Shown: positions 7,128-44,132 of the stretch, one piece after another
How the letters are laid out: every line of letters starts with the position of its first letter
Position numbering within the stretch: the stretch's first letter is position 1
NCBI GenBank assembly: GCA_013360915.1
Contig: JABWAT010000004.1
Location: 62,001 to 126,000 of the forward strand
Length of the DNA: 64,000 nt
Source: Bacteroidota bacterium
Lineage (GTDB): Bacteria > Bacteroidota > JABWAT01
Reading direction: 5' to 3'
Made by a program: the position numbers and the translations under genes
The notes under the pieces: model-generated
The model's input: the letters and a program-made list of their open reading frames with translations, nothing else
What the model was told of the DNA's origin: nothing
Database searches by the model: none

Positions 7128-7347
7128 CCCACTTGATCAATTTGTTGTAACCGCTTTCCCTCGTTCGGAAAATTCGTAATAACGTTCCGGAATGGCATTA
7201 CGATTGTTCCTGAATCGGGTGACGGGTTCGGAGACAAAAATTTATTAAGAATATTTAAACATCAGAGACGTTTCGATGAAAATCCGGGCCTGAGAGTTGA
7301 TTGGCCTTTCTGATTGTATACTTAAAGAAAATCTAACCGGATACTCC

Positions 7348-40836: not shown

Positions 40837-40905
40837 ACAGTAAAGATATCAAACAGCCCGATGGCTGTCAGGTTCAGACCGGAAAATTAGAAGGGCATTA
40901 GTAAA

Positions 40906-40967
40906 TTAGATTTATTCCAAATAACTTGACAGAAAACGAAAACGTCCTTAACTTAGATTTGTTCTAA
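40906..40967 (+). promoter_or_regulatory. Promoter of the flavin operon with two dyad operators
   Basis: The promoter is TTGACA (40926-40931), 17-bp spacer, TAACTTAG (40949-40956). Two copies of one dyad bracket it. TTAGA-TTTAT-TCCAA (40906-40920) lies just upstream of the -35 element, and TTAGA-TTTGT-TCTAA (40953-40967) covers the -10 end and start site. The second copy is a perfect inverted repeat and the first has one mismatch; their centres are 47 bp apart. This arrangement suits a dimeric repressor, perhaps of the Fur or DtxR type. Confidence 0.72.
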
Positions 40968-40983: not shown

Positions 40984-42105
40984 TTGAAACCAATTGCATT
41001 TGCAAGTGTTTTACTCATGGTTGCCGGGGTGGCATTTGCCCAGGGAACCACCTCCATCGGCGGATATGGAGAGTTACATTTCAACAAGAACACCTACTCG
41101 CCGGGCAAACCGGAAAAGGACAGGGTGGGACTCTTCGATTTCCATCGGTTTGTGCTGTATGTCGGTCATGATTTTAATGATTGGGTCAGTTTTAAATCGG
41201 AACTCGAACTTGAACATACTCAGGTGAAAAGCTCAAATTCCCAATCTGAAGTTGCACTGGAACAGGCCTTCATTGATCTGAAGTTTTCGAAACCCATCGG
41301 ATTCAGGGCTGGTATTTTCCTCATTCCGGTGGGATTTATCAATGAATTTCATGAGCCAAACACATTTAATGGTGTGGAACGACCCTCGGTGGATCGTGTT
41401 CTGATTCCCACCACCTGGCGTGAGGCGGGCATCGGGATCTATGGTGAAGTGATGGAAGGAATCAGTTACCGGTTGTATTATGTTGCCGGTCTGAATCCGC
41501 AGAAAATGAATGAAAAGGGAATCCGGGATACCCGCCAGAGCGGGTATTATTCTCAGGCCGATGACATGGCGCTCACCGGTCGGATAGAATTCCTGCCCCT
41601 TCCCGAGCTGAAAACCGGCTTTTCCTTCTATACCAGTTCACTGGAATTGAATTCTGTATATGCAGATACCCTTTCCGGCTCCCGCTTTACCTTGCTGGAA
41701 GGGGATGTCCGGTACCAGGTGGGTGATCTGAGTCTGAAAGCCGTTGGGGTGTATTCCATGGTGAGCGAGGCGACCAAACTGGTGACTGAGCTGAAGAAAA
41801 ACATCGGGGACTCACAGATGGGATACTACGTGGAAGCAGGATACAACATCCTGCCCGCTTTTCTGCCCGACAGTGAACAATCACTGACTCTGTTTACCCG
41901 CTTTGAAGAGTACAACACTCAGTATTCCCTGTCGGCCCCGGCTGTGAAAGTGGCCGGAACCGATGTAAATGAATTTACCGCAGGGATCACCTGGCTTCCG
42001 CATCCGAATGTCGCCCTGAAAGCCGACTATCAATGGATCGATGCAAGTGGTTCACCTGACATGACTCAAAAACTGAATCTGGGAATTGGTTATTATTTCT
42101 ACTGA
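40984..42105 (+). CDS. Outer-membrane porin-like protein, first gene of the flavin operon
   Basis: A 373-residue secreted protein; TTG start after AAAGGAAG, signal cut after VAFAQ (residue 20). The mature protein reads GGYGELHFNK at the start and LNLGIGYYFY at the end, with about 16 barrel strands between and the conserved HRFVLYVGHDFNDWVSFKSELELEH. Similar barrels accompany metal or phosphate uptake in FCB bacteria. It overlaps the FMN-binding gene by 20 bp, so it probably brings in the substrate that the flavin proteins reduce, or an iron complex. Confidence 0.8.
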   Translation: MKPIAFASVLLMVAGVAFAQGTTSIGGYGELHFNKNTYSPGKPEKDRVGLFDFHRFVLYVGHDFNDWVSFKSELELEHTQVKSSNSQSEVALEQAFIDLKFSKPIGFRAGIFLIPVGFINEFHEPNTFNGVERPSVDRVLIPTTWREAGIGIYGEVMEGISYRLYYVAGLNPQKMNEKGIRDTRQSGYYSQADDMALTGRIEFLPLPELKTGFSFYTSSLELNSVYADTLSGSRFTLLEGDVRYQVGDLSLKAVGVYSMVSEATKLVTELKKNIGDSQMGYYVEAGYNILPAFLPDSEQSLTLFTRFEEYNTQYSLSAPAVKVAGTDVNEFTAGITWLPHPNVALKADYQWIDASGSPDMTQKLNLGIGYYFY

Positions 42106-42655
42106 TTGGATTGCACGACGACGACAACGACCGCGATACAAGGATCGGCATCCGGCTGTAAAGGCCGGGTGCCGGTTTGCGTTTATCCTTTGCTTGCTTT
42201 TATCCCCCCAATGGCTGCAGGCTGGTGCCCGGTTAACCCTGACCTATCAGGATCTGGCCCGGCAATCGGCTGAACGCATCGTGGGAGAGGTGAGCGGTTG
42301 GGAACTTGACTCATCGGGACAGGTAACGTTTATCCGGTTTAAATCGGGTGGGGAACCATACACAGCCTTTATCGATGAGGTGAAGGGGAAAACCCAGCTG
42401 ATTACTTATCTGCTCCTGCTCAATGGTAGGGGTGAGGTGGTCGATGTGGATGTGCTGGTTTACCGTGAATCGTACGGCGGCGAAATTGACTACCCGGTTT
42501 TCAGGAAACAATTTGCAGGAAAATCCGGAACGGAACCTCCGGTCTGGAACCGGAACATCCGGAATATCAGCGGAGCAACAATATCCTGCCGGAGTATCAC
42601 TGCCGGCGTGGCCCGCCTTCTGAAATTTAATCAATTGCTTCTGACGACGAAATGA
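42086..42655 (+). CDS. FMN-binding domain protein, predicted covalently flavinylated
   Basis: A 189-residue exported protein with a membrane-spanning signal (about 28-46) and one FMN-binding domain. The flavinylation motif SGAT is at 162-165 with Thr165 as the expected FMN attachment site, in NIRNISGATISCRSIT. ApbE, which makes that bond, is encoded two genes on. By analogy with NqrC/RnfG-type domains it would shuttle electrons outside the cytoplasm. The TTG start lies inside the porin gene; no better start exists before the signal. Confidence 0.85.
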   Translation: MVIISTDWIARRRQRPRYKDRHPAVKAGCRFAFILCLLLSPQWLQAGARLTLTYQDLARQSAERIVGEVSGWELDSSGQVTFIRFKSGGEPYTAFIDEVKGKTQLITYLLLLNGRGEVVDVDVLVYRESYGGEIDYPVFRKQFAGKSGTEPPVWNRNIRNISGATISCRSITAGVARLLKFNQLLLTTK

Positions 42656-43152
42656 TGCTTATCCGCCAATGGCCGGCTGCCATACGCCGGTTTATTTTTA
42701 TTTACATGCTGATCACCACCACCGGTCTGATGATTGGTCTGGCCTTCGTCCGGAATGAAACCAACCTGTCATCAGCCGGGATCAGAGAGCATTACAACGG
42801 GACCGATCCGCAGGATGATCTTAATGATGATATCAAATTTGAAAAATCGGCAAAGGATCTGTTGCTGACCACTCATAATCACATTCTTGGTCTCAGTTCG
42901 GTCTTTTTCATCACAGCCGCCCTGTTCTGGTTTACCGGTTGGTTCAGTGAAACCTGGCGTCTGGTGATTATGGCCGAACCCCTGGTGGCTCTGGTCACCA
43001 CCTTCGGCGGCATCTGGGTGCTTCGGTTCATTTCGGGAATGGAGTGGATCACCTGGTTTATCATGCTCAGCGGACTTTCCATGTTTATCACCTTTGGTCT
43101 GATGTCGGTGGCTATCCTGACTGAAACGATCCGGAAAGGGAAGTCCGCGTGA
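42652..43152 (+). CDS. Unknown four-helix membrane protein of the flavin operon
   Basis: A 166-residue inner-membrane protein with four predicted helices (about 12-32, 78-100, 105-128, 132-156). Between helices 1 and 2 is a periplasmic loop ending in the histidine pair TTHNHILGLSS at the mouth of helix 2, which could bind haem, iron or quinone. No family is recognised. It overlaps both neighbours by four bases (ATGA, GTGA) and probably passes electrons from the membrane to the FMN protein. Confidence 0.78.
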   Translation: MMLIRQWPAAIRRFIFIYMLITTTGLMIGLAFVRNETNLSSAGIREHYNGTDPQDDLNDDIKFEKSAKDLLLTTHNHILGLSSVFFITAALFWFTGWFSETWRLVIMAEPLVALVTTFGGIWVLRFISGMEWITWFIMLSGLSMFITFGLMSVAILTETIRKGKSA

Positions 43153-44132
43153 ACCGTCGCGATTTCCTGCGGTTGGTGGGTGTGGCCGGATTGTTGTTCC
43201 CGGTCGCGCGGGTGGCTTCAGGATGGGTTCCCGATGTACGGATTCATGGTGAGCGGCGGACGCTGGTGACCCGGCAGGTGTTTGTGATGGGGTCGGTGTT
43301 CCACTTTCACCTGCTCACTCCCGATGAAAAATCAGCCTGGCAGGATCTGAACCGGGTGGTAGCCCGGCTTCGATTTCTTGAATCGGTCTGGTCGGTGTAT
43401 CTGCCAGAATCTGATCTTTCCAGATTAAATGCCTCTGCTGGCACTGATCCGGTTACCGTTGATTCATCCACCCGTCGGCTTCTTGAAACAGCAAAAGAAC
43501 TGCATGCCCTGTCGGGCGGACTTTTTGATCTGACCGTTGAACCGGTGATGCGGCTTTTCGGATTTCGCAAGGATCCCGATCAGCTGATTGATCGGCCAAC
43601 AGATAAAGAATTGGCCGCTCTGGAATCGGCCATCGGAATCGGTAATGTGGAAACAAAGGGATCTCTTGCTGCATTGAGGAACGGTATGTCGGCTGTGGAT
43701 CCCGGCGGAATCGGATGTGGCCTGGCTTTGGATGAATCGGTATCCATGCTTCGGTCGGCAGGTCATGACCGGGCCTTCCTGAATTTCAGTGGCGATGTGT
43801 TTGCATTGGGTTCTGATCCGGATGAAAACGGGTGGGAAGTGGAAATTCTGAATCCGACCATCCCCGATAAGAATGAAATCCTCCGGATCCGTGATACAGC
43901 GCTTTCCACCTCGGGGGCGTATGAAAACCGACGGGGAAATGGTCTGGTCAGCTGGGGACATATCATCCATCCGCAACACCGCCGGCCCGAAGAACCGGTT
44001 CAATCGGTTACGGTCGTGGCAAAGTCGGCCACCATGGCCGATGGTCTTTCCACGGCTGCCTTCCTGAAACCCGACCTGCTTCCTGTCTGGAAGTCCTCGG
44101 GCTATCTTACCGACTTTTCCATCCTGCTCTGA
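43149..44132 (+). CDS. apbE: FAD:protein FMN transferase (ApbE family)
   Basis: Attaches FMN from FAD to Thr of SGAT-type motifs in exported proteins. The GTG start gives MNRRDFLRLVGVAGLLFP, a twin-arginine-like signal, placing it outside the cytoplasm. The 327 residues include VMGSVFHFHL, VDPGGIGCGLALDESV (a Cys replaces the usual Lys of GIGKG), FNFSGDVFALGS-like NFSGD, HIIHP and ATMADGLSTA. Its natural substrate is the FMN-binding protein in the same operon. Confidence 0.92.
   Translation: MNRRDFLRLVGVAGLLFPVARVASGWVPDVRIHGERRTLVTRQVFVMGSVFHFHLLTPDEKSAWQDLNRVVARLRFLESVWSVYLPESDLSRLNASAGTDPVTVDSSTRRLLETAKELHALSGGLFDLTVEPVMRLFGFRKDPDQLIDRPTDKELAALESAIGIGNVETKGSLAALRNGMSAVDPGGIGCGLALDESVSMLRSAGHDRAFLNFSGDVFALGSDPDENGWEVEILNPTIPDKNEILRIRDTALSTSGAYENRRGNGLVSWGHIIHPQHRRPEEPVQSVTVVAKSATMADGLSTAAFLKPDLLPVWKSSGYLTDFSILL

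Follow-up and report, generated by a model that had tools for sequence, protein, structure and literature searches.

A four-gene operon of a Bacteroidota bacterium, analysed within a 64-kb stretch of its genome (the window), probably encodes a ferric reductase that works in the cell envelope, serves iron assimilation and is repressed by Fur; it would be a form of ApbE-flavinylated electron transfer. We put the probability of this reading at roughly two in three. The operon consists of the genes for a porin, an exported FMN-binding protein, a four-helix membrane protein (TM4) and ApbE. The genes, their conservation and order, the flavinylation motif, the box common to the promoters and the linkage to iron genes are supported by the data described below. 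An earlier note on this DNA had read the set as an electron-transfer operon, and in outline this reading is supported by the gene linkage and the boxes, short of being proven.

Positions of the operon genes and upstream boxes in the window
Feature	Position	Strand	Remark
Distal Fur-type box TAAATTAGATTTATTCCAAATAA	40902..40924	+	PWM score 25.1 bits
Proximal Fur-type box TAACTTAGATTTGTTCTAAATAA	40949..40971	+	29.2 bits, top score in the whole window
Porin, Porin_O_P type, outer membrane, 373 aa	40984..42105	+	TTG start; signal peptide ends at AFA-Q
Exported FMN-binding protein, RnfG/NqrC type, 189 aa	42086..42655	+	FMN_bind match
TM4, inner-membrane four-helix protein, 166 aa	42652..43152	+	Without known family; proposed electron donor
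ApbE, FAD:protein FMN transferase, 327 aa	43149..44132	+	GTG start; ApbE domain, Tat-type signal

All four reading frames that the earlier note had placed at 40984-44132 were found there on the plus strand, with consecutive overlaps of 20, 4 and 4 bp, in agreement with the 4-20 bp it had given. The 20-bp overlap depends on the uncertain TTG start of the FMN protein, TTG being the sole common start codon 5' of its signal peptide. The boxes at 40902 and 40949, 5' of the first gene, belong to the feature as well and should be added to it. The porin-like barrel was confirmed by the Porin_O_P family (E 4e-11; 43.1 bits against a cut-off of 20.9), with a further match to Porin_4 (6e-8).

The FMN protein matches FMN_bind (E 3.4e-7; 31.3 bits against the curated cut-off of 22) and, in the PDB, RnfG, both by profile (1.2e-14) and by fold (probability 1.00). 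Its residues 162-165 are exactly the claimed SGAT, lying within SGAT-I-S and conforming to the flavinylation motif [S/T]GA[S/T]. Among 40 sequences of the protein E128, G163, A164 and T165 are invariant, and Thr165 is the predicted point of FMN attachment. The ApbE domain was matched at E 3e-56 (191.3 bits) and FMN transferases of the PDB at 1e-25, and the Tat-like character ascribed to this protein is borne out by the TAT_signal_seq model (17.6 bits, NCBI cut-off 16.7; sequence NRRDFLRLVG). Since the host genome (99.35% complete) carries a single FMN_bind gene and a single ApbE gene, both in the cassette, the two proteins very probably form an enzyme-substrate pair.

Homologues of TM4 were detected in 11/60 relatives by a single-protein search and in 40/395 sampled genomes of the phylum by an alignment search; a single-protein scan of the wider genome contigs gave one locus, and the search of plasmids gave no match. 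In the 39 other loci TM4 is accompanied by the FMN protein in every case, by the porin in 36 (it is lacking in L071, L078 and L079) and by ApbE in 16. The neighbourhood check with TM4 as anchor, proposed in the earlier note, thus found every homologue beside an FMN-binding gene (39/39). The genes for the porin, the FMN protein and TM4 almost always stand in this order, that for ApbE may come before or after them, and ApbE is encoded elsewhere in 23/23 genomes without a local copy. By a reciprocal profile search the FMN-protein subfamily was found in 41/395 genomes at E<1e-30, 40 of the 41 being the TM4-positive set. The FMN-positive genome without TM4 (G065, locus L200) has a porin and an FMN protein in which TGST replaces SGAT. 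In this protein (L200:7865-8416), which has no TM4 neighbour, the flavinylation site is perhaps decaying or re-purposed.

Several other genes were observed near the cassettes. At L071:8644-9570 (minus strand) the head of an FMN-TM4 unit is taken, in place of the porin, by a DUF6607 gene that has a strong box of the Fur type and may stand in for the porin functionally. A protein with NusG domain II is encoded between TM4 and ApbE at L063:8525-9256. In one genus (L018-L021) a PCu(A)C-like copper-chaperone gene lies 3' of TM4, hinting at a copper link there. A gene for an MsrB-type methionine sulfoxide reductase lies 5' of the porin at L062:10164-10700, and members of its gene cluster are found 5' in L015, L052 and L053. 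The genes for IMPDH, HMGL, GlnD, HSP90, a release factor and similar proteins near some cassettes look like unrelated neighbours.

The AlphaFold2 model of TM4 (mean pLDDT 94.5) has four long helices, at residues 9-37, 67-93, 100-126 and 133-160, as expected of the four-helix membrane protein described earlier, and a short extra helix in the loop 38-66. The only invariant residues among 40 TM4 sequences are G50, in the loop preceding helix 2, and H75 and H77, which form an H75-x-H77 pair near the start of helix 2; P110 (38/40) and E109 (35/40) are also common. Because positive residues are located at the N-terminus and around position 103, the loop 38-66 and the His-x-His pair are predicted to face the periplasm.

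No Pfam or NCBIfam family consistently fits the 40 TM4 proteins (best 25 of 41 Pfam families, E<=10), and the TM4 of the window taken alone matches no family of either collection. NapH, MsrQ, PepSY, DsbD, NqrB/RnfD and DUF4405 are all absent among the best 25 of the 41 families matched. Comparison with PDB sequences gave noise only, and comparison with PDB folds gave nothing at E<=0.001. By the tests applied, TM4 appears to be none of the donor classes in the main texts of PMC8238504 and PMC11334425. In a transmembrane cytochrome b the paired axial His residues are on separate helices, whereas only H75 and H77 are conserved in TM4; no conserved Cys was found in the protein. Since the two conserved His are on one helix and conserved Cys is lacking, an intramolecular bis-His heme or an Fe-S cluster is unlikely; a homodimeric heme site is possible. 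DUF2871-like, heme-copper oxidase-like HxH proteins gave a weak match with TM4 (hhalign probability 14%), with HxH in register, and a link to them was not adopted. As a separate observation, small membrane proteins with the pattern SAHTHxIL...ALWFFPR (151-155 aa ORFs in L107, L108, L110, L113, L118 and L119) resemble a heme-copper oxidase helix and are weakly DUF2871-like.

A role for TM4 is suggested by genome G270 (locus L201), which has a 17/18 box upstream, a porin, a divergent FMN protein, a 150-aa protein, ApbE and, downstream, a TonB receptor. The best Pfam match of the 150-aa protein is cytochrome b561 (2.4e-5, below the curated cut-off), with DUF4405 second, and it looks as if a cytochrome-type donor has replaced TM4 at this locus. 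Because such a protein occupies the TM4 slot, TM4 itself is suggested to be the membrane electron donor, and this replacement is the best hint for that role.

The two upstream boxes are direct 23-bp copies with a spacing of 47 bp, and the same spacing is found in the relative L012. The proximal box matches the consensus at 16/18 positions, a level reached by 0/200 shuffles. It overlaps TAGATTTG at 40954-40961, in agreement with the -7 element of Bacteroidota-type promoters, for which the consensus is TAnnTTTG. As the proximal box covers this element, Fur bound there would block the promoter.

The upstream regions of homologous cassettes have in common the palindrome TTATTTAGAN5TCTAAATAA. A box with at least 14/18 matches precedes the first gene of the cassette in 29/39 loci, compared with 23/449 of the other upstream regions; of these 23 sites several stand before the iron gene that leads the cassette's own transcription unit (fur in L054, and FbpA in both L069 and L073). 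The box lies instead 5' of the leading gene of the unit in L054 (fur), L069 and L073 (both FbpA-like) and L071 (DUF6607), and in L070 and L076 it sits, in our reading, just within an over-long start call. With the leading-gene and over-long-start cases counted, we would put the box in about 35/39 loci. The divergent loci L077-L080 gave no recognisable box.

For the feo promoters, a matrix built solely from the cassette promoter sites was used. It detected a box directly 5' of fur-feoAB of the host genome (L099), weaker at 14.6 bits, and 5' of every fur-linked feoB tested in relatives (L127, L130-L132, L136 and L137; 18 to 33 bits); it detected none 5' of four short FeoB_N-only frames. The Fur box of Riemerella anatipestifer, ATTTAGAATTATTCTAAAT, which has gel-shift support (PMC5609570), is contained in the cassette consensus, and L065 carries it letter for letter. 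The count of the exact box in the genome of the operon itself (5 sites with <=1 mismatch, versus 12 for the reversed-pattern control) gave no genome-wide excess, and therefore the claim of Fur control rests on cross-genome conservation and the feo promoters. In agreement with membership in a Fur regulon, the operator matches the Fur box of Riemerella and is common to other iron genes; the operon is apparently under Fur control, with the two boxes as predicted Fur operators. Apart from the two boxes, the window has a single site that reaches 14 bits, a weak Fur-type box at 7242-7264 on the minus strand (14.5 bits), which is probably due to chance.

Iron genes are found next to some of the cassettes. 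In L054 the genes fur-feoB-porin-FMN-TM4-apbE follow one another on one strand, in L077 and L080 feoB lies 5' of the cassette, and in L065, L069 and L073 this position is taken by the gene for an FbpA-type solute-binding (ferric-binding) protein, that of L069 having PDB matches to ferric-binding proteins (9e-92). Most loci have no adjacent iron transporter, and the host genome encodes fur-feoA-feoB away from the cassette. The earlier guess that iron is the substrate is strengthened by the Fur boxes and by these upstream genes; Fur control alone does not prove a substrate.

From the sequences we infer flavinylation, a quinol donor, conduction by TM4, a ferric acceptor and the solute of the porin, and the following model would combine them. 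At low iron Fur would leave both boxes and the operon would be transcribed. ApbE would be exported and load the RnfG-like protein in the periplasm with FMN at Thr165. TM4 would receive electrons from the quinol pool or from another membrane donor and hand them to the covalent FMN, with its own His-x-His pair, close to the periplasmic side, as part of the transfer site. The reduced flavoprotein would then reduce Fe(III), or small chelates of it admitted by the porin, and the Fe(II) product would be taken up by FeoB, encoded with fur and feoA elsewhere in the genome. A more specific proposal, which we hold with somewhat more doubt than belief, is that TM4 represents a new quinol-oxidising class that reduces its flavinylated partner through His-x-His, with neither an ordinary bis-His heme nor an Fe-S cluster, and is the central part of a hitherto unrecognised ferric reductase under Fur control.

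Fur-type control would fit equally well if iron were the signal only, the flavoprotein replacing an iron-containing periplasmic carrier and passing electrons on to an enzyme of respiration or repair. The main text of PMC8238504 describes flavinylation and cytochromes as interchangeable, and thioredoxin-like or MsrB genes adjoin some loci. The cassette, however, has no conserved terminal enzyme but a porin as conserved partner, and the transport genes linked to it (feoB, FbpA, TonB receptor) are those of iron, so that this iron-sparing role is unlikely. It is a rather poor prospect that TM4 is an anchor or assembly factor, for instance for ApbE or the supply of FAD, with the electrons coming from a protein encoded elsewhere. 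Beyond H-x-H it has no recognisable cofactor site, nor any family or fold match, which speaks for such a role, but it stays with the FMN protein where ApbE is not adjacent (23/39), both of its His are invariant, and it is the slot of TM4 that the cytochrome b561/DUF4405-like protein fills in L201.

The porin adjoins the flavoprotein in 36/39 loci, and the trees of the two proteins correlate (r 0.79), as they would if both formed an outer-membrane complex that delivers electrons to extracellular acceptors in the manner of porin-cytochrome conduits. A single FMN in a 19-kDa protein is, however, unable to span the outer membrane, partners with multiple flavins or hemes were not seen, three loci lack the porin, and control by iron starvation fits assimilation better than iron-oxide respiration; we consider such a conduit very improbable. 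That the porin, the FMN protein and ApbE are chance neighbours without joint function is refuted for practical purposes: the set is conserved in order and linkage across many families of the phylum, its loci have a box in common, and the reciprocal search returned nearly the same genomes; nothing was found in favour of chance.

ApbE-flavinylated electron transfer with links to iron is known as a class. The main text of PMC8238504 gives NapH-like, MsrQ-like, PepSY-like, DsbD and NQR/RNF-like membrane donors, and for the PepSY- and MsrQ-like sets it proposes a link to iron assimilation. The cassette resembles these systems in combining an exported FMN_bind substrate, ApbE and one membrane protein with a link to iron assimilation, and differs from them in that TM4 is outside their donor families and a porin belongs to the set; the word 'porin' is absent from that main text, as is the name Bacteroidota. 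The DUF4405-like flavinylation-associated cytochromes and FezC (PMC11334425) are, like TM4, small membrane proteins with conserved His beside an ApbE substrate. They have four central His, in contrast to the two on one helix of TM4, which has no DUF4405 match and is not described in the main text of that paper. The earlier note did not know this four-gene set as a named system, in agreement with the main texts of both surveys, though listing in their supplementary tables is possible. With the same proviso for supplementary listing, the membrane partner, the association with a porin and this cassette under Fur control did not turn up in the main texts of the papers searched.

In Riemerella the cluster RAYM_04491-04506, which includes apbE, rises under iron restriction (PMC5609570). 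It is like the cassette as a set of iron-restriction-induced Bacteroidota genes with apbE among them. Judged from its annotation alone ('nitric oxide synthase' and two hypotheticals), it is presumably a PepSY-type set, unlike the cassette. The FMN protein shares its fold and SGAT-type site with RnfG/NqrC of RNF/NQR, but it is predicted to be soluble and exported and has no RNF/NQR neighbours. With PepSY-like ferric reductases such as FoxB and VciB the cassette has in common a proposed reduction of periplasmic or siderophore iron and Fur control, whereas its membrane fold and flavinylated partner differ.

Envelope ferric reduction in Gram-negative bacteria without obvious siderophore systems is poorly known. 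The cassette offers a ready test set, with one each of membrane protein, flavoprotein, maturase, porin and predicted operator, and natural variants are at hand in G065, without TM4, and G270, with the cytochrome-like replacement. If the proposed reading is true, the cassette adds a class of membrane donor that domain-based surveys could miss, since TM4 has no Pfam model, and about one in ten of the genomes sampled from the phylum would have a ferric reductase of this kind.
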